From NCBI RefSeq assembly GCF_032854445.1, contig NC_088297.1:26035915-26099914 (forward strand): 64,000 bases of DNA. Direction: 5' to 3'. Positions within the stretch are counted from its first letter, which is position 1; each line of letters starts with the position of its first letter. Under the pieces are notes generated by a model. That model searched no databases. It had not been told where the DNA came from and saw only the letters and a list, made by a program, of their open reading frames with translations. Source of the stretch: Liolophura sinensis (Eukaryota > Mollusca > Polyplacophora > Chitonida > Chitonidae). The position numbers were made by a program, and so were the translations under genes. Shown here piece after piece: positions 21,056-37,893 of the stretch.

Positions 21056-21247
21056 TTATATGGGTGTGGTGGAGTACACATCAGGGTTATCTCCCCTTGA
21101 GGTGGTGTCGACGGAGTCACCTGACGTCATAGGGTTCACCTCCAAGGTCAAACTGGTGGGACTAAGTGGAGTTTTCTGAGGACTGAATATGGGTTTGCTG
21201 AGGTCTAGGCGGTCGATGGAGGACATGGAGGCCACCAAATCACTCAT
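21056..21247 (-). CDS. SLCO5A1: SLCO5A1-like exon 11 (C-terminal tail)
   Basis: The acceptor is tcaatgttacag|ATGAGTG, phase 0. It encodes 63 residues and ends at TAA 21056-21058. The tail is rich in Ser, Thr and Pro (SPQKTPLSPTSLTLEV) with several SP/TP sites that could be phosphorylated, and ends VYSTTPI, where T-P-I fits a class I PDZ ligand. Such ligands tether several OATPs at the membrane; use here is an inference. Confidence 0.9.
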   Translation of the reverse strand: MSDLVASMSSIDRLDLSKPIFSPQKTPLSPTSLTLEVNPMTSGDSVDTTSRGDNPDVYSTTPI

Positions 21248-24200
21248 CTGTAACATTGACAAAAAAAAAAACGAGAGTTTGGAAATCAACTACACAAATA
21301 CATGCATGTGCAGAAAAAGTCTGCCAAATCACTCATGTGCAACAGGGAATGACAAAACTGAGCGTTTGGAATGACTTGTGATGGGGCTTACCAGCTGTGG
21401 ATTTGAACCAACAATCCCTGAGTTTGACGTTCATGCTTCTAGCACTACACTAAAGGGGAATTCCTTCCAATCCAGAAGTAGATAGCACTTATACACCACC
21501 CTGTTACATTCACCACTGTTTCCCTTGTCATGTTCTCCGGACTACCAAGGAAAAGTGAGTTTACCATATAAAGTCCATCAGTGCATAACGGCCTGCTACA
21601 TAAGCTACTCCAGCAACCATGATTGTAGTGCCAAAACTGACAGGGCTTACCTGCTCAGATTTGAACCAGCGAATTCCCTCCAATTTAGAGGTACATAGTG
21701 CTAAAACACTACTGCTACAGACAGAATCAAGCAAAAAGCTACCCAAAATTTGGAAGTTTCCATAAAGATGACACTAAAAGCAATGTTAAGAACCTCCAGA
21801 TACATTGTAGTGGAAGTGGCTGCGGTTTCTACAAACAGTGACCCTAACAACCCTGTACACTACATATAACATGTGCATGTACAACACTGGGAAGTAGAAT
21901 GCTTTTAATTCTTCTTATCAAACTTTTCTCAACAGAGCAAAGAAAGACCACATCATTGTACCTTTCAGTTTTCTCCTGTATTTACATCATGTCCTAAGCA
22001 AATCTTGGTCAGATAATGATGATTTCCCCTTGTACTAGGCTGGTGTCAATGCTGACACATCAGAAATGGGGACCTCCGTGGCTCAGTTGGTTAGCGCACT
22101 AGCGCTGCATAATGACCCAGAAGCCTCTCACCAATGCGGTCGCTGCGAGTTCAAGTCCAGCTCATGCTGGCTTTCCTCTCTGGTACATGGGAAGGTCTGG
22201 CAGCAACCTGCGGATGGTCGTGGGTTCCCCCGGCCTCTGCCCGGTTTTCACCCACCATACTGCTGGCCGCTGTCATATAAGTGAAATATTCTTGAGTACG
22301 GCGTAAAACACCAATCAAATAAATAAATAAACACAAAATCATCGGAAATGCAGCCTCACTATGTTGTGGACACTGGTTATGAAACTGACACTGAGCTGAC
22401 CAGTGCTTTAGCCTATACCCTTCTGTAGTTAAACAGCCAAGCCAGGAAGTAGAAATGACAGACTTACATTGGCCATGGCACCTGGACCTTCCTGTGTGTA
22501 ACGTTGTTTGATCAACAACCAGACCACAAAGAACAGGCCACACCCAAGGGCATTAAGAGCCGCTGATATGCCTGTCAGAACACAAACAAAAACACATATC
22601 ACAGGATTCACATAAAACATACAACATGCACTTTTCATTTATTGATTGGTGTTTAATGCCTATCTTTCACTTTAATACCTGTATACAAATGTTGTGATTA
22701 TCTGGGATGGAAACTGTAGAAACCCACCCACATTTAGCAAGGAACTGTAGAACTTCTTTCACCACTGACTTACAGGTTTTCACCCATAAATCTAGGTCAA
22801 TGTGTATGGGGTACAACTAATGAAAGTCAAATTCTACTGAAGCAAATTTGATGCTGAGAAAAAATGTGGTAGGCAAATGTGGCCTTGTAGGGCTTTCTTT
22901 ATTCCCATTTCTTCACACCATTTTCATGGTATCTTATTCTTCGTGTATAGGGATTTAAGGCTTTGTCAAGAATGTGTTGACGTGTATGATGAGTCACATC
23001 TATGAGTGGAGAGAAAACAGCACTTCTTGTGATAGCTGATAAGATCACATGATCACACATATAGATGTAATGTACTGTCTACAATTTGGTAAGCTCCTAG
23101 GAGCTATGACAAACCAGATGTCACTTGACTGTCAACTTACCCATATACTGTATTTATACACGTGAAGATGTAATGTACTGTCTACAATTTGGTAAGCTCC
23201 TAGGAGCTATGGCAAACCAGATGTCACTTGACTGTCAGCTTACCCATACACTGTATTTATACACGTGTAGATGTAATGTACTGTCTACAATTTGGTAAGT
23301 TCCTAGGAGCTATGGCAAATCACGTCACTTGACTGTCAACTTACCCATATACTGTGTTTGCACACATGTAGATGTAATGTACTGTGTGCAATTTGGCAGG
23401 AGCTATGGCAAATCAGATGTCACTTGACTGTGAACTTACTCTTATATTTATACATGTGTAGATGTAATGTACTGTCTACAATTTGGTAAGCCCCTAGGAG
23501 CTATGGCAAACCAGATGTCACTTGACTGTCAACTTACCCATATACTGTATTTGCACACATGTAGATGTAATGTACTGTGTGCAATTTGGCAGGAGCTATG
23601 GCAAATCAGATGTCACTTGACTGTGAACTTACTCTTATATTTATACATGTGTAGATGTAATGTACTGTGTGCAATTTGGTAAGCTCCTAGGAGCTATGGC
23701 AAACCAGGTGTCACTTGACTGTCAACTTACTCAGATATTTATACACGTGTAGATGTAATGTACTGTGTGCAATTTGGCAGGAGCTATGGCAAATCAGATG
23801 TCAATTGACTGTCAACTTACCCATATACTGTATTTATACACATGTAGATGTAATGTACTGTGTGCAATTTGGCAGGAGCTATGGCAAAGCAGATGTCACT
23901 TGACTGTCAACTTACCCATATGCTGTATTTATACATGTGTAGATGTAATGTACTGTGTGCAATTTGGTAAGCTCCTAGAAGCTATGGCAAATCAGATGTC
24001 ACTTGACTGTCAACTTACTCAGATATTTATACACGTGTAGATGTCATGTACTGTGTGCAATTTGGCAGGAGCTATGGCAAATCAGATGTCAATTGACTGT
24101 GAACTTACTCACATATTTATACATGTGTAGATGTAATGTACTGTCTACAATTTGGTAAGCTCCTAGGAGCTATGGCAAATCTCGTCACTTGACTGTCAGC

Positions 24201-27200
24201 TTACCCATATACTGTATTTATACACGTGAAGATCTAATGTACTGTCTACAATTTGGTAAGCTCCTAGGAGATATGGCAAATCACATGTCAATTGACTGTC
24301 AACTTACTCACATATTTATACACGTGTAGATGTAATGTACTGTCTACAATTTGGTAAGCTCCTAGGAGCTACGGCAAACCAGATGTCACTTGACTGTCAG
24401 CTTACCCATATACTGTATTTATACACGTGTAGATGTAATGTACTGTCTACAATTTGGTAAGCCCCTAGGAGCTATGGCAAACCAGATGTCACTTGACTGT
24501 CAACTTACCCATATACTGTATTTATACATGTGTAGATGTAATGTACTGTCTACAATTTGGTAAGCTCCTAGGAGCTATGGCAAACCAGATGTCACTTGAC
24601 TGTCAGCTTACCCATATACGGTATTTATACACATGTAGATGTAATGTACTGTGTGCAATTTGGTAAGCTCCTAGGAGCTATGGCAAACCAGATGTCAACT
24701 GACTGTCAACTTACCCATATACGGTATTTATACACATGTAGATGTAATGTACTGTGTGCAATTTGGTAAGCTCCTAGGAGCTATGGCAAACCAGATGTCA
24801 CTTGACTGTCAGCTTACCCAAATACTGTATTTATACACATGTAGATGTAATGTACTGTCTACAATTTGGTAAGCCCCTAGGAGCTATGGCAAACCACGTC
24901 ACTTGACTGTCAGCTTACCCATATACTGTATTTATACATGTGTAGATGTAATATACTGTGTGCAATTTGGTAAGCTCCTAGGAGCCATGGCAAACCAGAT
25001 GTCACTTGACTGTCAGCTTACCCATATACTGTATTTATACACATGTAGATGTAATGTACTGTGTGCAATTTGGCAGAAGTTATGGCAAATCAGATGTCAC
25101 TTGACTGTCAACTTACCCATATACTGTATTTATACATGTGTAGATGTAATGTACTGTGTGCAATTTGGTAAGCTCCTAGGAGCTATGGCAAATCAGATGT
25201 CACTTGACTGTCAGCTTACCCATATACTGTATTTATACACATGTAGATGTAATGTACTGTGTGCAATTTGGCAGAAGCTATGGCAAATCAGATGTCACTT
25301 GACTGTCAACTTACCCATATACTGTATTTATACTTGTGTAGATGTAATGTACTGTGTGCAATTTGGTAAGCTCCTAGGAGCTATGGCAAATCAGATGTCA
25401 CTTGACTGTCAACTTACTCAGATATTTATACACGTGTAGATGTAATGTACTGTGTGCAATTTGGCAGGAGCTATGGCAAATCAGATTTCAATTGACTGTG
25501 AACTTACTCACACATTTGTACATGTGTAGATGTAATGTACTGTCTACAATTTGGTAAGCTCCTAGGAGCTATGGCAAACCAGATGTCACTTGACTGTCAA
25601 CTTACCCATATACTGTATTTATACACATGTAGATGTAATGTAATGTGTGCAATGTGGTAAGCTCCTTGGAGCTATGGCAAACCAGATGTCACTTGACTGT
25701 CAGCTTACCCATATACTGTATTTATACATGTGTAGATGTAATGTACTGTCTACAATCTGGTAAGTTCCTAGGAGCTATGGCAAACCAGATGTCACTTGAC
25801 TGTCAACTTACCCATACACTGTATTTATACACATGTAGATGTAATGTACTGTGTGCAATTTGGTAAGCTCCTAGGAGCTATGGCAAACCAGATGTCACTT
25901 GACTGTCAGCTTACCCATATACTGTATTTATACACGTGTAGATGTAATGTACTGTCTACAATTTGGTAAGCCCCTAGGAGCTATGGCAAACCAGATGTCA
26001 CTTGACTGTCAACTTACCCATATACTGTATTTATACACATGTAGATGTAATGTACTGTCTACAATTTGGTAAGCTCCTAGGAGCTATGGCAAACCAGATG
26101 TCACTTGACTGTCAACTTACCCATATACTGTATTTATACATGTGTAGATGTAATGTACTGTGTGCAATTTGGTAAGCTCCTAGGAGCTATGGGAAACCAG
26201 ATGTCACTTGACTGTCAACTTACCCATATACTGTATTTATACACATGTAGATGTAATGTACTGTCTACAATTTGGTAAGCCCCTAGGAGCTATGGCAAAC
26301 CAGATGTCACTTGACTGTCAACTTACCCATATACTGTATTTATACACATGTAGATGTAATGTACTGTCTACAATTTGGTAAGCCCCTAGGAGCTATGGCA
26401 AACCAGATGTCACTTGACTGTCAACTTACCCATATACTGTATTTATACACGTGTAGATGTAATGTACTGTCTACAATTTGGTAAGCCCCTAGGAGCTATG
26501 GCAAATCACGTCACTTGACTGTCAACTTACCTACATATTTATACCGGAACTGTACAATGTCGTAAAAAAAACAAGCACCAACATTTTCACATTTCTGTTT
26601 CCACAACATACAAGTAGTGTCAATAATGTTGCCAAACATTATTGGGGCTGGAATATTAGCTGGAAAAAGATGAAGTTTAAATGAGAGCAAATACATTCTT
26701 CATTCCAAAACAGAATTGCTCTGATAAAGTCTACATTAACAGAATAGAGGTATTTTATTTAATATTTCATTGTATACATTGCATAAATCCATACATTAAA
26801 CACTTAATACATGATTTAACAAGACCTTTTGCTAAAGAGAATAGCGAATCTCAACCCAAAATATAATATATAAATTTCTTGGCAAATATAGAAACACAGC
26901 ATGGTCACATTCATACTGTTTACATCAAAATATATTTTTTATTTTGTTCAGTTTTCTTGTCAGAAAGGATGTTAATAAATATATGTTAATAAATATAACC
27001 TAAAAAATTACGTCTGTCACTCACCAAATAATCGGAGAATGACAAATTGCATTCCCAATGCAAATGCTCTCTCTTCTTCCGCCACACTTCTGCAACATCA
27101 AAACATTTCTACTCATTTAGTTTCTGGTAATCATACAAGTTGAGTCACTTCTACCCATTTAGTTTCTGGTAATCATACAAATTGAGTTATTTCTACCCAT

Positions 27201-30200
27201 TTAGTTTCTGGCAATCATACAAGTTGAGTCATTTCTACCCATTTAGCTTCTGGCAATCATACAAGTTGAGTCATTTCTACCCATTTAGTTTCTGGCAATC
27301 ATACAAGTTGAGTCATTTCTACCCATTTAGTTTCTGGCAATCATACAAGTTGAGTTATTTCTACCCATTTAGTTTCTGGCAATCATACAAGTTGAGTCAT
27401 TTCTACCCATTTAGTTTCTGGCAATCATACAAGTTGAGTCATTTCTACTCATTTAGTTTATGGCAATCATACAAGTTGAGTTATTTCTACCCATTTAGTT
27501 TCTGGCAATCATACAAGTTGAGTCATTTCTACTCATTTAGTTTATGGTAATCATGTAGGCTTTCACCAAAAATTTCAATCATATTCCATTCATTTCAGTT
27601 ATTATCAATGCTTCATTCGTATTGAGTCATTTCCACTCATTTAGTTTATGGTAAACACTGCAGCGTTTACCAAAGATTCATATGTTCTTTATGATCTTAG
27701 TTTATGGTAGTCATTTGGGGCTTTCATCTAAATTTCACAGACATCAAATCATTTCCACCCATTTAGTTTCTGGTAGCCATTGAGCTTTCCTTGCCTTCCT
27801 TGCCTTAATGATAGCCACTGTCATATAAGTGAAATGTTCTAGAGAACAGTGTAAGCACTAATCAAATAAATGAATAAATCAGAGCTTCTCATACTCAGAC
27901 ATTTCTATGGCTTTAGTTTATGGCAACAGAAGGCATTTACTTACCTAAGAGTGACCATGACAAAAGGCATGTGTGTACCAGAAACACAGAATGTCATGAC
28001 AACCAGCAGGATGAGGAACGACAAAAACTTACCTGAGAGTGACCATGACAAGGGGCATGTGTGTACCAGAAACACAGAATGTCATGACAACCAGCAGGAC
28101 GAGGAAAGACAACACTTACCTGAGAGTGACCATGACAAGGGGCATGTGTGTACCAGAAACACAGAATGTCATGACAACCAGCAGGATGAGGAACGACAAC
28201 ACTTACCTGAGAGTGACCATGACAAGGGGCATACATGTACCAGAAACACAGAATGTCATGACAACCAGCAGGATGAGGAACGACAACACTTACCTGAGAG
28301 TGACCATGACAAGGGGCATGTGTGTACCAGAAACACAGAATGTCATGACAACCAGCAGGATGAGGAATGACAACACTCACCTGAGAGTGACCATGACAAG
28401 GGGCATGTGTGTACCAGAAACACAGAATGTCATGACAACCAGCAGGATGAGGAACGACAACACTTACCTGAGAGTGACCATGACAAGGGGCATGTGTGTA
28501 CCAGAAACACAGAATGTCATGACAACCAGCAGGATGAGGAACGGTAACATGCTATCACAGGTTGTCTTACATGGCCCGTTGGTGGCCAGGGGGGACATGA
28601 TGACCTCTGGGGATACTGGTTCGTCACTGATACAGGAACATCCTGTGTAATTCTACAAAATATATTGTGTAATGCTCTACATACGCCTGGACAGGAACAG
28701 CATGTGACAACAGCTGCAACAGATAGTGCATGTACGGGCATAGGGTCAATGACCTTGAACAAATACGTCAATGCCAAACAACAGGGTTCTAAATAGGTGA
28801 ACATAAGTTGATGAAAATCACTTAAAAATTTCAAGCTATAGCAAGTTTGTATGCCAGTTGAAAAATATATGTTATTATTATATCTACTATATCTTATTAC
28901 ATTTATCTTACGTGTAAGTTGACACAGTTACTAACCAGGAGGCGCTCGTGCTGTACTACGGACTCGTAGTACCTCGTGCAGCCGGCATGACATGGTGAGA
29001 AATATGTGATCCCGTTCACGCCACAGATCAGCTCAAACTCGTTTGATGAACAGTCACAATCCAGGTTACATGAGGATGTAAGATTGGTCTTAGGTAGACT
29101 GTAGACAGACCTGCATAAACCGTCAACATTCTATCAATCAGCCTGATGAACAGTTACAATCCAGGTTACATAAGATGAGATGGGGGTCAGGTAGATTGTA
29201 ACCAGGTGGTTGAACCAATTAGTGAAATAGCATACCCGGCCCTCAAAGTAAATTTCTGACCTTGTACAACAAACTACATGCATAATAAATGAAATCAAAC
29301 ACTTCAACATAAATGTGCACTGACACACCCACTCCAAGGTGACACACCCACTCCAAGGTGACACACCCACTCCAAGGTTACACACCCACTCCAAGGTTAC
29401 ACACGCACTCCAAGGTTACACACCCACTCCGAGGTTACACATGCACTCCAAGGTTAACAAAACCTCTGATTACGAAACTTTCTCCCATCATCACATTGCA
29501 CTGATTTATGAAACTTTCCCCCGTCAACACGCTGCACTGATTTATGAAACTTTCTCCCGTCATCACACTGCATTGATTTATGAAACTTTCTCCCGTCATC
29601 ACACTGCATTGATTACGAAACTTTCTCGCAGCATCACACTGCATTGATTTACGAAACTTTCTCCCGTCATCACACTGCACTGATTACGAAACTTTCTCCC
29701 GTCATCACACTGCACTGATTACGAAACTTTCTCCCGTCATCACACTGCACTGATTTACGAAACTTTCTCCCGTCATCACGCTGCACTGATTAACGAAACT
29801 TTCTCCCGTCATCACACTGCATTGATTTACAAAACTTTCTCCCGTCATCACACTGCATTGATTTACGAAACTTTCTCCCGTCATCACACTGCATTGATTA
29901 CGAAACTTTCTCCCAGCATCACACTGCATTGATTTACGAAAGTTTCTTCCGTCATCACACTGCATTGATTTACGAAACTTTCTCCCGTCATCACACTGCA
30001 TTGATTTACGAAACTTTCTCCCGTCATCACACTGCACTGATTAACGAAACTTTCTCCCATCATCACACTGCACTGATTTACGAAAGTTTCTTCCGTCATC
30101 ACACTGCACTGATTTATGAAACTTTCTCCCGTCATCACACTGCATTGATTTACGAAACTTTCTCCCGTCATCACACTGCACTGATTAACGAAATTTTCTC

Positions 30201-33200
30201 CCATCATCACACTGCACTGATTTACGAAACTTTCTCCCAGCATCACACTGCATTGATTTACGAAACTTTCTCCCGTCATCACACTGCACTGATTAACGAA
30301 ACTTTCTCCCGTCATCACGCTGCACTGATTTACAAAACTTTCTCCCGTCATCACACTGCACTGATTTACGACACTTTCTTCCGTCGTCACACTGCATTGA
30401 TTTACTTATTACCATACCTTCTCAATTATTACAGACACTCAGTGATTGAGACACATTGGAAGAAAGTGGGTAGATCGCAAAAGTCGCCTGCGAAATACTC
30501 ACAGCGGGTGATACTGACATGCCAGCTGCCCAGCTGGAGTATACGCCTATCCTGGCCTATAAAGCCAGGCTTTCCTGACAGCTTGTAGACAGCACATTAC
30601 GATGTCACTTCTCAGTATAAACGCTTGTTTAAAAAGACATAAAAGACAAAAATACTGATACCGGAAAATCAACATAATGAAAATATCTCCCTACCCAAAA
30701 CACTCACCATGCCGTTTTCTCACTTGTGTTTTACAAACTATGCTTTCTTACATTGAAATTTGATGGTTGAATGGCACTATTTACAGGGAAGCATTCAACA
30801 CCCTACCGCACTAGGTACTTTATCTGCAGGATTGTCTTCAATCTACCGATCGCTTGCCTTCCTCCCCACTCATGTATGGGGCCCACATAAGAATGGAACA
30901 TGGATGACTGGCATTTGATCATTGAATTAACAATGCTGCCTTGCAAATGTGGATAAAACACCTGAAGTACATGTGTCTGATGTGTAGGTAGACTTCTCTT
31001 TTACTTCTGATCACTTGTCCACTTTGGCGGGAACACGACATAACTCTGATAGCCGAGTCTCAACGAGGGAAGGGGAGGGGGCTACATCCTTTTTAGATTA
31101 ATTTAAACAAAGATAGTTTGTAACATATTACCACAGGTATTTCAAGAAAAAGTTAGTAGTGCATGTACATTCCTGTATATATGTCATTAAATTAGCTAAA
31201 AAGGGCTTTATACTTTTATTACATACCAGATGACATAGAGAATATTGACTTCTGAATATATACATGTATTGCTCTGAATATATACAGGCATCGCTAATTT
31301 GACAGAAAGTATATAAACAATGTTCACCCGGAGAACAAAGTTCAAGTGGTTAGATCCAACTGAAAAGATGAAAGGCCTGATTTTCCAGTTCCTGGACGAG
31401 AATACAAACCATGTAGATTTCATCTGCTATCTGCAGGTCTGGGACGTGGGAGGCCCTTTAAAGCCGTTTACAGACACAAGATCATACATATATGTTCTGT
31501 GTTCAAATAAATGTCTGAAGTAAAGAGAAGAACTGCCAAATTCCCATGTGTATTAATCTTCCAATCACTCCAAGGGGATGCGGAAAAGTTACGAACGATG
31601 CAGAGTATGGAGCCGTCTCAGTAAATTCACCGCCACCTACCTCAACATCCTTTCCTTGGAAACCTCACTCAGTTTACTTCAACTTCAATTAAACAGAAGT
31701 ATCAGGTAAAATCTTCCATTAAACGTTCGTAAGACAAAATATGCAAAGCGCATACTGATTACAAAAGTCAAGACTGCATGCAGATCAGTGGCTACAGGTA
31801 CTGGCTTTAGAAATTATTACCAGATAATAAACTCCCCACAAAAAGCCGGCTTAATATAGTATGGAAATTCACAGCTTGTATGTATCTCGCTAATAATATA
31901 TTTTTAAGCAGCTTTCTCAAAATATTGGCACGCCTACAGGTACATATATTTGTGAATGAACGATTACCTACTGTGAAAAAACTTTTGAACCAGGTTTTAT
32001 TTTTAATGTTGCAATAAAAGCTTTGAATTCACAGGAAGCAGGGCTTTATCAGCAGGTGTCTCCAACACAAGCACCTGTTTCATCTGGACGGTAAGCTCAA
32101 GTTTCAGCCAGCCTATTAAAAGTATGAGAGGGGTGGCGACGACACAGTGATAGAATCTCAGAGTACTGTTTATCTCACTTGGATTGGTCAATCACCCCTA
32201 CAGCTTCAAGTGCCTGGCTCACAGTACTCCTGCTAGGTGTCCCCATGTATCATCCGTAGTAAATCCTCACAAGCATGAAACTAGTAGTAGCTGGATAAAT
32301 TCAAACTCCAACCGTCATGTTTGATGCAGTCCTCATGGCCCATACAAGGGAGATAACCACTGACACTACTAGCAACTAGCATATTTTGTACATCTTGTTT
32401 AATCTTTACTTAAATTGTTTGAGAAATTTTTTAGTGATCAATGTTGATTAAGGGTTCCCTCTAGGTTATTACTGGTGTGACCGATCCTAAATAATTAGCC
32501 CGTGCATGTCAAAAGGTCAGCCTAGTCTAGTAGCAGTTGTGGCAGTGATTCCACTCACTGTGACGGGTATGCATTCATAGACGGCCGTTGTAGTTCGAAT
32601 TTATGCAGTTTCCACCAGTTTCATGCTTGTCAGGATTTACTAGGGATGACAAACTGGGACATCTATCTGGAGTCGGTAGCTGAGACAACTACGAGTACAG
32701 ACAGAAGCATTATTTGGCAGCCAACAGTAGTGTACTGAAGCTAGTACGGGAAGTGCGGAGGTGTTTGTGGTAAGCTTATGGAACATGACAGGGCTGTGAT
32801 AGTATACATGATCACAGCCCTACAGAGCTAAGATGCAGGGAATGCCCAGCTAACACACACCACATGTTGTTGTGATAGAAATAGCCTTAAACAAGTAAGA
32901 ACTGTAACGGAAAACTTTAAGAAGTGGTTATTCGCTTGCCACTTCAAACACTCATCGAAGAGTCTGAAATTTGATCATATCAAATGCAGGGTCTGCAGGC
33001 CAACGACAATATGGGCCGAAATACAGGCGGAGACAGAATTTCATCTTTCAAAGTACAATTAATCGAACTGTTTGCTGGGACAGTACCGGTAATTACAAGT
33101 GTGCTTAGTCCATCTACACGGACTCGGCATTTCTTTCTTTCACATCTTGACATTCATCACAACACTGTGTCCATCCCTGCCTCTTACCACTGTTCAATGG

Positions 33201-36200
33201 AAAAATGTGAATCTTTCAAAAACCAGCATTATGTGTTTTTCGGCCTCTACCCCTCTTGCCAAACCGATGAGGCTCACTGAAGCATGACAGAGGTGTGGGC
33301 AGCTGTCACTGATCGACTACCGCTTCTCCCCACAGAAGACTTTACTACTTAAGGCAACAGCCCTCACAAGGCACTATGGTATACAGTTTCTGAAAATGCA
33401 TCTGTAATTATTGAGAAGGTACAGTAACAGTGAGTGACAAATACATATTAAATTGGCTTCAAAAACCAACAACTTACACATTACTAAGATGCCTGACATA
33501 TGGCTCTGTGGCACCCGCCAGCTTTAAATTATCACAACCCAGGAAAAAGAACACGGAAAATCCAGCCAATGAAATCAGGTTTAGGGCAAGGATCATCTGG
33601 ATGGCACCTGTCAATCACAAGGTCAAAGGTCAGACTTAAAATTTCTACTTTCTGTTCAGGTAATGGGGGCTTGCACTTTGCTGGTTACAAGTAAACTTTT
33701 AAAACAAAGTTAGAGTCTCTGTATGACTTATTGCCAGACGGATTTTAGATCACACTAATTTGGGCACACCTTGTATTGCAATATGTGATCTAAACTTGAC
33801 CACACCCAAAATTAAAAGGCACATTTTTTTACTTTAATTTTCAGGTCATTAAATGCATCAACTAGTTTGATCTTGTCAATAACTTGCCAAACTTTCAACG
33901 TGCATCTGTATTTTTTATTTATTTATTTACTTGATTGGTGTTTTATGCTGCACTTAAGAACATTTCGCTTATACAATGGCGACCAGCATTGTGGTGGGAG
34001 GACAACTGTATTTTTCAGTCCTCACTAAAAATTTCTCTGACTTTGTCTATTTATTGTCTATTATCACCAGACAGAGGAGAGTATACAAACCTTTAGGACG
34101 AAGTTGAAATCTCTTCAGGACATAACCCCCGACCATGATTCCCAGCACCGCCCCGGGGATTCCCACTCCACCTGAGCAAGACACAACAACATAAATACCT
34201 AGCCTCAACGTGTACATATAATTACAGCAGAAGTAAGTCGTTACAGGTATCTGAGCTGTTCAGCTCTAGGGCTTCACAGTGTAAATGTCAAACTGTTCTC
34301 AAGGGCTTGATGGCATGGCAAGGATTCCGATGAACTGCAGAAAACAGACGCATCACACAAGTTTGAAGTATGTTATGTTACTCACACATAGTAAACTAGC
34401 AGGTAATGATCCACACATACATAGATACAATGTTGTCCGAATCACTATGGCTATTCATTATCAGAGGAGATTTTGTGGAGAGAAACTAAAGCAGGGACTT
34501 TGATGTTTCTGACAGAAATATAATGATCCACACAAAGATGATTTCATGGAATCATAACAGATTTCAACATCTCCATAATAAGTCTGTGATTCTTTCACTG
34601 ACTTATCTGTTCATAGATTAGCCTGAGGTTTGTTGACAGACTTACCTGTGAATAGATTAGCCTGATGTTTGCTGACAAACTCACCTGTGAATAGATGAGC
34701 CTGATGTTTGCTGACAGACTCACCTATGAATGGATTAGCCTGAGATTTGCCGACAGATTCACCTGTGAATAGACTAACCTGAGATTTGCTGACAGACTCA
34801 CCTGTGAATAGATTAGCCTGAGCTTTGCTGACTGACTCACCTGTGAAGAGATTAGCCTGAGATTTGCTGACAGATTCACCTGTGAATAGACTAGCCTGAG
34901 ATTTGCTGACAAACTCACCTGTGAATAGACTAGCCTGAGCTTTGCTGACTGACTCACCTGTGAAGAGATTAGCCTGAGATTTGCTGACAGATTCACCTGT
35001 GAATAGACTAGCCTGAGCTTTGCTGACTGACACACCTGTGAATAGATTAGCCTGAGTTTTGCTGACTGACTCACCTGTGAAGAGATTAGCCTGAGATTTG
35101 CTGACTCCGAACTGAGTCTCCAGGTATTTGGGGATGAAGACAACAAAGCCACTGGTGACAGAGATTTCACAACAGATGCCCAGGCATAGAACAAAATACA
35201 CACGGTTCTTCATCAGTGCCAGTATTGACTTGGGAATGTCTGACAACAGGTCATAAATCATACCATTTATTATCAAATGTCTTAACAGATCATAAATCAT
35301 ACCATTTATTATCAAATGTCTTTTAACAGGTCATAAATCATACCATTTATTATCAAATGTCTTTTAACAGGTCATAAATCATACCATTTATACTCAAATG
35401 TCTGTACACAGGTCATACATCACACCATTTATACTTTTTTACTAAATTGTTTACTGAAGTAAACAACAAACATCATTTCTTTCTTAGAAAGTCTGCACAA
35501 AGCAGGTCACAAGCCACATATCATTTATATATCTCATATCTCCCAAGAGTTAAATTCAAAACAAAGAACAAAACTATGTGGAGGACCAGTGTACATCTAG
35601 GAGGAGTCTTAGTGGCCAACAGGTCACATAAACCTTCTGTTAAAAATAAACTGTTTTCAAAATTTAAATTGAATTCACACAATTTTAATTTGGAAAAAAA
35701 AACATACCTATTCTATTTTTTAACACGAATGTTTAGTGGTCTTTCCAAGCTGTTTACTTGTTTCTATCTATCACCACCAACAGATAATGATTTTCCCGAA
35801 CCCCTCATTCGTTTCTATCCATTATCACCTGCCTTTAAAGCTTTTCCCAAACCCCTCATTTGTCTCAATCAATGCCCACCCACCTTCAATGGTTTTCCCA
35901 AAACCATCATTTGTCTCAATCAATACCCACCCACCTTCAATGGTTTTCCCAAACCCCTCATTTGTCTCCACCTGTATCTACTACCACCCAACTTTAATGA
36001 TTTTCTTAAAATCCTCACCTTGTCACTCACCTTTAATGGTTTTCCCTAAGCCCTCTTTTGTCTCTATCTATTATCACCTACCTTTAATGGTCTTCCCAAA
36101 CTCCTCGTTAGCCTCATGATCTGCTGGTTTCAACAGATCTTCCTTCACCTTCAAATCCAGGAGCTTTCGCTGTTCTTTTATCAGTTTTTTGGGAAATGCG

Positions 36201-37893
36201 AGGAATGGCACGGAGAGCATGAGGAGTAGACCCCCACAGATGATGAACCCACCCCACCAGGCCCCCACCCAGCGGGGGTCTGATGGTGTCAGGTTAACAT
36301 CATACGAGAACAAGTCCACATAATACTGCAACAACAACGCTCCCAGTGTGAAACCCAACACTGGGCCCAGGGCGCCCATGGCGTAGATAAAAGCTGCAAG
36401 GGCAACAGAAAAAAACAATTACAGCTCCCTACCATTTTCACCTAATAAAACAGTAGAAACAATTAAAATCAGAGCACACACTTTATAAAGCACGTTTAGA
36501 GTTGTGGGGGCCTCCCTGGCTCAGTTGGTTAGCCCACTAGCGCAGCGTAATGACCCAGGAGCCCCTCACCAATGCGGTCGCTGTGATTTCAAGTCCAGCT
36601 CATGCTGACTTCCTCTTTGGCCAAAAGTGGAAAGGTCTGTTAGCAACCTGCGGATGGTTGTAGGTTTCCCTCGAGCTCTGCCCGGTTTCCACCCACCATA
36701 TTGCTGGCAACCATCATATAAGTGAAATATTCTTGAGTATGGTGTAAAACACTAATCAAATACATGTAAATAAAAAAAAATTTAGATTTGTTATTTATTT
36801 TTTTACTTGGCAGGTGTTTAAATGGTCATGAAAGCAGAGGAAACCAAAACAAAAGTTCCTGAAAAACTGACTTACAAGTTAAAACAGTCAACCCGCGAGT
36901 GCTGGGTTTGAGCCAGTGACCTTACTACACTTTTCAAGTCTTCATCAGCAGAATTTAGCCATAAAAACAGATCTTACCTAGATAAGCAGGTGCCTTTTCC
37001 TTGGGCACATGATCGTCCACGTAGGTTGTGCCCAGGGTCATGATGGGAGTGCCCCCTGTCCCTATCAGTACCTGAGCCACCACCAGAATCAATACGTACA
37101 CAAAGTTCCCAGAATGCTCGTCCACACAAAACGCCTCATCCAGGCGTGCACTGCCAGACAAGCGGCTGCAGATGTTCTCTTCTGTCGAGTTCAGGTCGAT
37201 GCCGCCACGCTTTGTGTACTTCTCCGCCATGATGTGAGGAAGCGCAAACAGAAGCGCCCCGATGCCCATACATACGACACCCAGGCCAATCCACTTTGGA
37301 ATGTGTCTACGGCCGCCTAGGTAGCTCACGAAGACAACGGCAACCAATGAACCAAACTCGTACGATGCAGCGATGAGGCCAGACGTGGAACTGCCGATTT
37401 CAAAGCGTTTCTCAATAGTTGTGATGACACTGTTGAAGTATCCCGCGGACAGCCCTGTGCTCACTGCAATCAGCATCGACGTGACAAAGATAAACATGCG
37501 GATATCGGCACAGGGCTGGAGACAAGACGGACGGAAGTGGCCGATGCCGCATTCTCTCTGCTTAGAGTCCTCACTCATGTCCTCAGCAAGCCTCTGTTGG
37601 ACATACTCATCCTTCTCTGTCTTACCCCTTAGGAACTCGTACTGACTGTTGAGGGTGTAACCACTGCTGGAACTGTCAATGGGGCTTGGGCAGCCCTCGA
37701 CATCTCCCACCTGCCTGCCGCTGAAATGTGACCCGTCACCCTCTACCAAAAGGGTACTTCTGGGCAGCTGATCATTGGAGAATATGAGCCTGTCTGTGGA
37801 AGGTGCGGGAGGTTCACCACACACTGGGTTCTCGGGATCATCTACAGAATCCCTCCTAAATGCCCGTGCCTCTTCACTCTCTGTGGTTTCCAT
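21056..37893 (-). CDS. SLCO5A1: Organic anion transporting polypeptide, SLCO5A1-like (complete, 11 coding exons)
   Basis: OATPs are 12-pass plasma-membrane carriers that move large amphipathic organic anions; vertebrate OATP5A1 is still an orphan. I joined 36978-37893, 36082-36393, 35075-35239, 34091-34171, 33478-33607, 28936-29110 (or 28912-29110), 28468-28652, 27025-27089, 26531-26659, 22468-22571 and 21056-21247. Every phase agrees and the product is 817 (or 825) residues. There is a cytoplasmic N-terminus of about 130 residues, the OATP signature DPRWVGAWWGGF in exon 2, a Kazal-like cysteine loop in exons 6-7, and a C-terminal T-P-I that fits a class I PDZ ligand. VTLRSVxEEERxFALGMQFV, IDTTCMLW and FGKTIKD are closest to SLCO5A1 from memory; SLCO4 members are next. 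Tandem arrays lie against the splice sites of most internal exons. Confidence 0.85.
22058..22332 (+). mobile_element. tRNA-derived SINE, main family, full length
   Basis: This is the best copy: tRNA-like A box GTGGCTCAGTTGGTTAGCGC, B box GAGTTCAAGTCCAGCTC, a body with GGATGGTCGTGGGTTCCCCC, and tail TGAAATATTCTTGAGTACGG followed by CGTAAAACACCAATCAAATA and AATAAATAAA. It lies in intron 10 of the SLCO5A1-like gene, opposite in direction. The two plus-strand frames in it are not genes. Confidence 0.92.
22468..22571 (-). CDS. SLCO5A1: SLCO5A1-like exon 10 (TM12)
   Basis: The acceptor is ttgttctgacag|GCATATC and the donor GCCAAT|GTAAGT, phase 1 in and 0 out. It encodes GISAALNALGCGLFFVVWLL followed by IKQRYTQEGPGAMAN, the last transmembrane span and the start of the cytoplasmic tail. 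Confidence 0.92.
23045..26545 (-). repeat. Array of about 104-bp units carrying the exon 9 donor sequence, about 34 copies
   Basis: Each unit holds TGTAGATGTAATGTACTG, CAATTTGGTAAGCTCCTAGG, AGCTATGGCAAACCAGATGT, CACTTGACTGTCAACTTACC and ATATACTGTATTTATAC. On the minus strand the last two segments read GTATAAATACAGTATATGG|GTAAGTTGACAG, matching the real exon 9 end GTATAAATATGTAG|GTAAGTTGACAG. A shorter unit type lacks part of the CTAGGAGC block (TTGGCAGGAGC) and alternates with the long one. Plus-strand frames of 60-178 codons here are repeat artefacts. Confidence 0.94.
26531..26659 (-). CDS. SLCO5A1: SLCO5A1-like exon 9 (TM11 and loop)
   Basis: The acceptor is catctttttccag|CTAATATT and the donor TATGTAG|GTAAGT, phase 1 in and 1 out. 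It encodes ANIPAPIMFGNIIDTTCMLW followed by KQKCENVGACFFYDIVQFRY and KYV. The IPxPIxFGxxIDxTCxLW block is an OATP hallmark. The donor region is included in the adjoining array of about 104 bp. Confidence 0.93.
27025..27089 (-). CDS. SLCO5A1: SLCO5A1-like exon 8
   Basis: A 65-bp exon between acceptor gatgttgcag|AAGTGTGG and donor TTATTTG|GTGAGT, phase 2 in and 1 out. Joined to exon 7 it reads RSVAEEERAFALGMQFVILR followed by LF, the highly conserved OATP segment leading into TM11. It is one of the stretches closest to SLCO5A1. Confidence 0.92.
27101..27785 (-). repeat. 42-bp tandem array against the exon 8 acceptor, about 11 copies plus decayed ones
   Basis: The minus-strand unit is GTATGATTGCCAGAAACTAA followed by ATGGGTAGAAATGACTCAAC and TT. 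The nearest copy merges into the exon 8 3' splice site (AGAAATGTTTTGATGTTGCAG). Units carry an internal TGATTGCCAG|A that could act as a decoy acceptor. Beyond 27550 the repeat is degenerate. The 122-codon plus-strand frame through it is an artefact of the 42-bp period. Confidence 0.92.
27795..27878 (+). mobile_element. SINE 3' tail fragment
   Basis: The stretch GCCACTGTCATATAAGTGAA, a mutated middle, then GCACTAATCAAATAAATGAA matches the 3' end of the main SINE family. It lies in intron 7 of the transporter gene between two arrays. Confidence 0.65.
27935..28545 (-). repeat. 87-bp tandem array made from the end of exon 7 and its donor, 7 copies
   Basis: The unit is 76 bp of exon 7 (from about CGTTCCTCATCCTGCTGG to CTCTCAG) plus 11 bp of intron (GTAAGTGTTGT). 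Copies are nearly identical. Donors lie at about 28467 (authentic) and then every 87 bp to 27946; one is GTGAGT and the rest GTAAGT. Reading on past a donor in the coding frame gives AGG-TAA, a stop, so use of a distal donor would truncate the transporter after TM10. Open frames in this interval are shadows of the repeat. Confidence 0.94.
28468..28652 (-). CDS. SLCO5A1: SLCO5A1-like exon 7 (end of cysteine loop, TM10)
   Basis: The acceptor is atattttgtag|AATTAC and the authentic donor CTCTCAG|GTAAGT, phase 0 in and 2 out. It encodes NYTGCSC, PVSPEVIMSPLATNGPCKTT and C, then TM10 (MLPFLILLVVMTFCVSGTHM) and PLVMVTLR. NYT is a likely glycosylation site. The TM10 part with its donor founds an 87-bp tandem array. 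Confidence 0.92.
28936..29110 (-). CDS. SLCO5A1: SLCO5A1-like exon 6 (Kazal-like cysteine loop)
   Basis: The acceptor is gtttatgcag|GTCTGTC. It encodes LPKTNLTSSCNLDCDCSSNE followed by FELICGVNGITYFSPCHAGC, the Kazal-like domain in extracellular loop 5 of OATPs, with an NLT glycosylation site. Two donors keep the phase: CTG|GTTAGT at 28936 and CAC|GTAAGA at 28912. The longer form would add VSNCVNLH, including one extra cysteine. Confidence 0.88.
29138..29205 (-). pseudogene. Degenerate partial copy of exon 6
   Basis: About 65 bp upstream of the real exon on the minus strand reads TACCTGACCCCCATCTCATC then TTATGTAACCTGGATTGTAA and CTGTTCATCA. It mirrors exon 6 positions about 29043-29103 with substitutions and small indels. 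The Cys codons of CNLDCDC are partly lost. It looks like a decayed tandem duplicate of the exon's 5' half. Confidence 0.75.
29316..29455. repeat. 19-bp minisatellite, about 7 copies
   Basis: The unit is CCACTCCAAGGTTACACAC with a g/t alternate. It lies in intron 5 of the SLCO5A1-like gene, about 200 bp upstream of the exon 6 acceptor. Confidence 0.93.
29466..30415. repeat. 36-bp minisatellite, about 27 copies
   Basis: The unit is CTGCATTGATTTACGAAACT followed by TTCTCCCGTCATCACA, with gattacg/gattaacg/gatttacg length variants of 34-36 bp. Because most units are 36 bp, long frames stay open on both strands (NQCSVMTGESFV on minus, ALIYETFSRHHT on plus). I treat these as repeat artefacts inside intron 5. 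Confidence 0.96.
30416..33477. other. Intron 5 of the SLCO5A1-like gene, non-repetitive part
   Basis: Between the 36-bp array and exon 5 I see no exon that fits the transporter phases, no SINE and no array. A 98-codon plus-strand frame at 32984-33280 is antisense and has no recognisable family feature. Confidence 0.45.
33478..33607 (-). CDS. SLCO5A1: SLCO5A1-like exon 5 (TM9)
   Basis: The acceptor is gtgattgacag|GTGCC and the donor AATGT|GTAAGT, phase 1 in and 2 out. It encodes GAIQMILALNLISLAGFSVF followed by FFLGCDNLKLAGATEPY, that is TM9 and the start of the large extracellular loop. The FLGCDxxxLAGxxxPY run is typical of SLCO3/5 members. Confidence 0.9.
33912..34010 (-). mobile_element. 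SINE 3' part
   Basis: On the minus strand the fragment reads CATTGTATAAGCGAAATGTT, CTTAAGTGCAGCATAAAACA and CCAATCAAGTAAATAAATAA, a mutated main-family tail. It lies in intron 4 of the transporter gene. Confidence 0.7.
34091..34171 (-). CDS. SLCO5A1: SLCO5A1-like exon 4 (TM8)
   Basis: An 81-bp exon between acceptor cttgctcag|GTGGAGTG and donor CCTAAAG|GTTTGT, phase 1 in and 1 out. It encodes GGVGIPGAVLGIMVGGYVLK followed by RFQLRPK, the glycine-rich TM8 hairpin of OATPs. The donor GTTTGT is weaker than the others in the gene. Confidence 0.9.
34611..35113 (-). repeat. 39-bp in-frame donor-site array at the 3' end of exon 3, 12 donors
   Basis: The unit covers the last codons of exon 3 plus its donor and is 39 bp, exactly 13 codons. 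Each unit encodes ESVSKSQANLFTG with small variations and ends ACAG|GTGAGT or a close form. From exon outwards I count twelve donors: seven GTGAGT (including the authentic one), three GTGAAT, one GTGTGT and one GTAAGT (the most distal). The frame of exon 3 stays open through 11 full extra units before a stop at about 34613. Confidence 0.93.
35075..35239 (-). CDS. SLCO5A1: SLCO5A1-like exon 3 (TM7 and following loop)
   Basis: The acceptor is cctgttgtcag|ACATTCCC and the first donor ACAG|GTGAGT, phase 1 in and 1 out. It encodes DIPKSILALMKNRVYFVLCL, the TM7 span GICCEISVTSGFVVFIPKYL and ETQFGVSKSQANLFTG. Both ends border tandem arrays: an acceptor-side repeat of about 49 bp and the 39-bp donor array. 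Confidence 0.93.
35236..35435 (-). repeat. Acceptor-side tandem repeat next to exon 3, about 49 bp, 4 copies
   Basis: The unit on the minus strand is about TGATTTATGACCTGTTAAAA followed by GACATTTGATAATAAATGGT. The copy nearest the exon holds the polypyrimidine-AG and the first exon bases (CCTGTTGTCAG|ACATT); the others keep CCTGTTAAAAGACATT. The repeat therefore spans the real 3' splice site. Confidence 0.85.
35750..36110 (-). repeat. 51-bp tandem array derived from the exon 2 / intron 2 boundary, 7 copies
   Basis: On the minus strand the end of exon 2 (TTTGGGAAGACCATTAAAG|GTAGGT) recurs every 51 bp or so into the intron with mutations. Copy 2 reads CCATTAAAG|GTGAGT, copies 4 and 5 CCATTGAAG|GTGGGT, and copy 6 TTTAAAG|GCAGGT. 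Copy 1 is the coding one. The decoy in copy 2 matches the donor consensus better than the authentic GTAGGT. Reading through intron copy 1 meets TGA at once, so use of a decoy would truncate the protein. Confidence 0.9.
36082..36393 (-). CDS. SLCO5A1: SLCO5A1-like exon 2 (OATP signature, TM5-TM6)
   Basis: The acceptor is cccttgcag|CTTTTATC; the authentic donor is ATTAAAG|GTAGGT. It encodes AFIYAMGALGPVLGFTLGAL (TM5), the superfamily signature DPRWVGAWWGGF and TM6, then a charged cytoplasmic loop ending EFGKTIK. The last part of this exon with its donor is the founder of a 51-bp tandem array that continues into the intron. Confidence 0.92.
36506..36778 (+). mobile_element. tRNA-derived SINE, main family
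   Basis: The head is GGCTCAGTTGGTTAGCCCAC and the body includes ATTTCAAGTCCAGCTCATGC. The tail is GTGAAATATTCTTGAGTATG then GTGTAAAACACTAATCAAAT. It sits in intron 1 of the SLCO5A1-like gene, antisense to it. Confidence 0.9.
36978..37893 (-). CDS. SLCO5A1: SLCO5A1-like exon 1 (N-terminus, TM1-TM4)
   Basis: Translation should start at the ATG at 37891-37893 (context AGTATGG, A at -3 and G at +4); a TAG lies in frame a few codons upstream. Residues 1-130 are polar and cytoplasmic. Hydrophobic spans fall near 132-152, 170-190, 201-220 and 263-283, matching TM1-TM4. NST at about residue 235 is a possible N-glycosylation site in the TM3-TM4 loop. The end, KEKAPAYLG, is the conserved OATP motif before TM5; the donor is CTAG|GTAAGA, phase 1. 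Confidence 0.9.

Follow-up and report, generated by a model that had tools for sequence, protein, structure and literature searches.

The third coding exon of a SLCO5A1-like transporter gene in the chiton Liolophura sinensis runs into a 39-bp tandem array that extends from the tail of the exon across its splice donor and into the following intron, so that the donor occurs twelve times in all. The array lies in a stretch of 64,000 nt (assembly GCF_032854445.1, contig NC_088297.1, positions 26,035,915 to 26,099,914; hereafter, the window), in which all coordinates are counted unless another locus is named. It belongs with the so-called mirages, which are tandem repeats over exon–intron boundaries, and it stands in the Mollusca, a phylum for which no report of boundary repeats was found in the open-licence literature searched, the name "mirage" coming there from amphioxus only. 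Likewise, neither "tandem repeat" nor "minisatellite" occurs in the main text of the eLife chiton genome paper. Judging from the sequence, the array is probably (with a probability of about 0.82) a neutral intronic minisatellite that was seeded at the edge of the exon and is spliced at its first donor.

The window gene encodes an OATP transporter, as is indicated by a match to PF03137 (best E value of 3.2e-50) and by the public protein P0001 (817 aa), named "solute carrier organic anion transporter family member 5A1-like [Liolophura sinensis]". Both agree with the SLCO5A1-like gene call made in a preliminary description of the window, and the mollusc relatives of P0001 found by protein search also carry SLCO5A1 names. 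The genome authors, who had first called their chiton L. japonica, later corrected the species to L. sinensis (PMC12441733). P0001 maps exactly to a coding region of 11 coding exons on the minus strand (21059..37893). Exon 3 (DIPKSILAL...SKSQANLFT+G; 35075..35239, minus strand), from which the repeat units derive, has 165 nt and is followed by the authentic donor of the public model, GTGAGT (35069..35074, minus strand). Exon 4 (G+GVGIPGAVLGIMVGGYVLKRFQLRPK; 34091..34171, minus strand) begins after the acceptor TTGCTCAG/GTGGAG, where the slash marks the splice boundary. The public protein joins the last base of exon 3 (35075) directly to the start of exon 4 (34171) without any extra block, and the intron between them, intron 3, is 903 nt long.

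According to Tandem Repeats Finder (TRF), the array covers 34613..35105 on the minus strand (493 bp; 12.6 copies, 88% matches, 0% indels, score of 755). A full unit joins approximately 30 nt from the end of exon 3 to the first 9 nt of the intron, the repeat unit thus lying across the exon–intron boundary as in a mirage; in units 2 and 5, the exon-derived part is identical to the last 30 nt of exon 3. Twelve GT donors are found at 35074-39k, with k running from 0 to 11 (35074 to 34645). Seven of these are GTGAGT, three GTGAAT, one GTGTGT, and one GTAAGT, which is the last donor in register (34640..34645, minus strand). AG/GT, another mirage trait, is present at all 12 unit boundaries (11 CAG and one TAG), and the outgoing phase is 1 at each of the 12 donors. 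The frame of exon 3 remains open through 11 full units and is closed in the twelfth by an in-frame TGA (34611..34613, minus strand). A recount of these features bore out the repeat step, donor counts, phase, and frame given in the preliminary description, including the openness of all full units. When a 641-bp stretch was searched against the 609-Mb assembly with a method that skips common words, it matched only itself, with no second genomic copy or alternative haplotype.

These features suggest how the array may have originated. Some 30 nt from the end of the exon, together with 9 nt of the intron, would have been duplicated in tandem across the exon 3 donor and then expanded, perhaps partly by blocks of around three units; mean unit identity is 92.9% at a lag of three units (8 pairs) versus 88.7% at a lag of one (10 pairs). 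The exon copy would be kept by selection on the protein, and the remaining units would drift as intron. If the spliceosome takes the first, exon-flanking donor, the array would normally leave with intron 3. The open frame, in turn, would be a consequence of a 39-nt unit with roughly 30 nt coding in the same frame and of a stop-free phase-1 GTGAGTC junction, read as GGT GAG TC(N). We infer this mutational origin of the array as well as the dominance of the first donor in RNA.

Over the 12 units there is one stop in the true frame, one in frame +1, and 22 in frame +2. The open frame is a weak signal, since frame +1 also holds just one stop. When the 11 full units are aligned, 26 of the 39 columns are invariant and the other 13 vary. 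The 15 distinct unit changes comprise 12 non-synonymous, three synonymous, and no stop changes, while random changes are expected to give fractions of 0.68-0.74, 0.24-0.30, and 0.026, respectively. Thus, the differences between units appear to fit an absence of coding constraint. Nor is there any sign of special constraint on the donors: their GT never changes, but this is true of 26 of the 39 columns altogether, and variation does occur at positions 5 and 6 of the donor. In addition, the chance of an open array was estimated from hypothetical tandem units of many sizes, each made of exon tail and intron start at one of the ten donors of the gene. Units of all sizes are open in frame in 17.6% of cases and multiples of three in 52.7%, and at exon 3 the multiples of three are open in 99% of cases. 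At an open rate of 17.6%, a gene with four donor arrays is expected to have at least one accidentally open array about half the time. On present evidence, the readability of the array as extra protein looks accidental.

Three sister arrays that repeat other donors of the same gene provide the best control for the open frame, as each of them is closed by a stop in the frame of its exon. The first is a degenerate 51-bp array, with stops, made of exon 2 tail and donor (EEFGKTIK/G; 35786..36107, minus strand), of which TRF covers just 35786-35968, the remaining copies being read by eye. The second is an 87-bp array of 76 nt of exon 7 tail and 11 nt of intron (27939..28543, minus strand), where read-through of the first donor immediately meets TAA. 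The third is a 103-bp array that starts from the exon 9 donor (23055..26531, minus strand; 21 exact GTAAGTTGACAG-type matches). Its units consist of the donor and the following intron with little exon tail; 103 is not divisible by three, and read-through stops after four codons.

Minisatellites that overlap donors also recur elsewhere in this genome, as would be expected of mirages. In a survey of OATP paralogs, in which 82 of 94 exon matches lay inside the stretches examined, copies of the exon tail on the donor side were found for seven exon matches, compared with two of 4000 random tail windows (four windows were tried per exon). On inspection, four of the seven cases lie at the exon end, namely exons 2 and 3 of the window and the loci L026 and L029. 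L012 and L010 were not counted as donor arrays because their matches run past in-frame stops, and L027 was not counted because it is a single copy. The test missed exon 9 of the window, whose units share little exon tail. The exon homologous to exon 3 was examined at 17 loci. At the paralog L029, it carries a 39-bp donor array with in-frame stops (approximately 1303-2159 of the reverse complement), and at L026, it carries a 50-bp donor array, also with stops. The units of L029 and of the window agree at 18 of 39 positions, a likeness that 266 of 2000 shuffles reach. This is no better than shuffled sequence, which suggests that the L029 array arose independently of the exon 3 array. Outside the family, 40 of 81 hand-chosen myosin matches were examined, yielding one clear donor array and two marginal single-copy cases (L052 and L058). 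The clear case, L044, is a 66-bp array of about eight copies at a myosin-head exon (123-717 of the reverse complement), whose units end in ATCAG/GTATGTG and have a stop in five of six full units. In all, every donor array that was read, save that of exon 3, cannot be translated through.

The preliminary description proposed a use for the exon 3 array. According to that proposal, several donors could be used, so that 0 to 11 extra 13-residue blocks would be inserted between transmembrane segment 7 (TM7) and the TM8 region, and individuals could differ in length. The arithmetic behind it is right: the twelve donors are in register and all in frame, and U1 pairing would in principle allow such insertions, given that six donors tie with the authentic score (itself included) and two more fall within 1.6 kcal/mol of it. 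Furthermore, of two strong donors in competition, it is often the intron-proximal one that is chosen. Use of the inner donors is not supported, however. The public protein model takes the 35074 donor only and skips the array. Among the best 120 of 611 homologous proteins, the stretch at the junction has 27 residues in 117 (P0001 included), one of the others having 26, one being partial, and one gapped; put differently, none of the 119 other homologs is longer at the junction and 116 have the same length. No longer isoform was listed in three protein searches, one of which gave the best 120 of 611 matches. The other two, for which the queries were the protein of spliced exons 2-5 and the genomic reading frame that runs on through the array, matched no sequence of this gene. 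These two returned only proteins of at most 74% identity, and so of other genes; they therefore say nothing for or against rare isoforms. Seven of these matches were inspected, and five run past the end of exon 3, without repeats, three of them entering intron-like sequence and two entering exon 4. The neutral differences between units and the stops that close the sister arrays and L029 also speak against use of the ladder. Finally, the available text on amphioxus (PMC3087553) points to regular splicing, both from RT-PCR (reverse transcription PCR) of globin mirages and from the data on Adh3. On balance, use of several donors is quite improbable.

Nevertheless, several observations weigh against a neutral, first-donor reading. 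To begin with, the splice in P0001 is that of a gene model and not junction evidence. The computed U1 pairing of the 12 donors is -12.2 kcal/mol for six (the authentic one included), -12.1 for one, -10.6 for one, -8.4 for three, and -7.7 for one, in a gene whose ten real donors range from -5.4 to -14.0 kcal/mol. Eight of the 12, counting the authentic donor, are therefore at most 1.6 kcal/mol from the authentic site, and only four are weaker. Because several array donors pair equally well with U1, the question of what would give the first one the advantage is a genuine one. A possible answer is exon definition, as the spliceosome may favour an exon of 165 nt over one of up to 594 nt. In addition, all 11 full units remain open; this is, nonetheless, unremarkable, since only about 0.4 stop changes are expected among 15. 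In the comparison of Ka/Ks between units that the preliminary description had put forward, dN/dS (the ratio of non-synonymous to synonymous rates; NG86 method) comes to 0.71 over 55 pairs in the true frame and to 1.10 over 45 pairs one frame over, which, with few changes, is a weak hint of coding constraint. Finally, arrays cannot be said with confidence to be enriched at this gene's donors. Three of ten donors lie inside TRF arrays, with p values of 0.006, 0.056, and 0.80 when the null allows an exon overlap of up to 40, 80, and 200 nt, respectively. A test on the distance to array edges gives p values of 0.23, 0.39, 0.02, and 0.08 at 10, 20, 30, and 50 nt, and one of the three matches behind the 30-nt value comes from a short 14-bp repeat at exon 8.

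A broader proposal would make boundary minisatellites general in this genome and would let them act as donor ladders where unit length and phase fit, producing low-level isoforms with 13-residue blocks whose number depends on copy number. We consider it unlikely. If true, such a series of ladders would be a raw stage for recruiting variable protein segments or new introns.

A different reading holds that the units are removed as intron pieces by recursive (ratchet) splicing, each removal regenerating a donor and leaving the mRNA unchanged. Because AG/GT is present at every one of the 12 boundaries, each excision within the array would create a donor anew and preserve the frame. Each unit also has a CTAAT-like branch motif, and the pyrimidine content before the AG (0.61-0.67 in 11 units) is within that of the acceptors of the gene (0.44-0.83). 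Against this, the branch motif is merely some 11 nt before the AG, the acceptor-like string is plain exon coding sequence, and usual animal introns are longer than the 39 nt of one unit. Moreover, intron 3 is short, with its 903 nt, while ratchet points are placed in long introns in the accessible part of PMC8605326. Ratchet splicing of the array would thus be very improbable. That the repeat was collapsed or expanded in assembly is hardly credible: there is a single assembly copy without a second haplotype for comparison, but 493 bp is short against a mean PacBio HiFi read of about 8.3 kb (from the available part of PMC11068029), and the units differ at 13 of 39 columns.

Other repeats surround the splice sites of this gene and of its relatives. 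A 41-bp array adjoins the exon 3 acceptor and resembles it (35245..35432, minus strand), and a 42-bp array stops short of the exon 8 acceptor by about 15 bp (27104..27554, minus strand). The intron after exon 7 holds six extra copies of the 76-nt exon tail with its donor, five in register and the sixth off by one, and the copies in this array have U1 pairing of -11.8 to -14.1 kcal/mol. Acceptor-side copies were found at four OATP exon matches. At L028 (C9:24457534-24457635), there is one acceptor-side copy of around 70 nt that includes the exon start and lies about 114 nt upstream. At L021, L023, L025, and L013, no more than about 40 nt separate the end of an array from the start of an OATP exon match, so that these too are acceptor-side arrays. 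The window itself sits 1.4 Mb from a scaffold end, and TRF arrays (period of at least 9 and at least two copies) cover 42% of it, compared with 0-45% of 20 OATP stretches from the same genome.

The repeated finds of boundary repeats in the chiton suggest that the growth of tandem arrays over splice sites is not peculiar to cephalochordates. With twelve donors spaced 39 nt apart at one exon, eight of them near-equal, and with closed sister arrays beside it, the gene would amount to a natural experiment on the fidelity of single-donor choice, and also on the possible beginnings of new introns or coding repeats.

Several known systems resemble the array in part. Ratchet points are juxtaposed acceptors and donors, as described in the accessible part of PMC8605326, and an acceptor-like sequence and a donor similarly adjoin at each unit boundary in the chiton; unlike ratchet points, the chiton array is tandem, derived from an exon, and placed in a short intron. 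In humans, the available text of PMC2812944 describes internal tandem repeats with minisatellite units of about 30 bp on average, which may cause novel introns when at exon–intron boundaries, and reports that 66% of intron modifications have transcript support for a repeat retained in the exon. By contrast, the chiton array is described from genome sequence and a public protein model. The tandem AG/GT boundary copies inside a gene also recall the creation of introns by duplication of AG/GT proto-splice sites (available parts of PMC3087553 and PMC4974935), although no new intron position is seen in the chiton gene, where intron 3 of the public model is the only one at this site. The closest likeness in form is to the amphioxus mirages. 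As far as the available parts of PMC3087553 and PMC3902484 describe them, these occur in Adh3, the globins BflGb6 and BflGb9, troponin C, and PGBD5, have units of 10-160 bp, many with AG/GT signals, can vary in length, and are judged harmless to regular splicing. The exon 3 array is like them in that its unit spans an exon–intron boundary with AG/GT signals, and it differs from them in that its host is a chiton, from another phylum, and in that its unit length is divisible by three and leaves the frame of the exon open.
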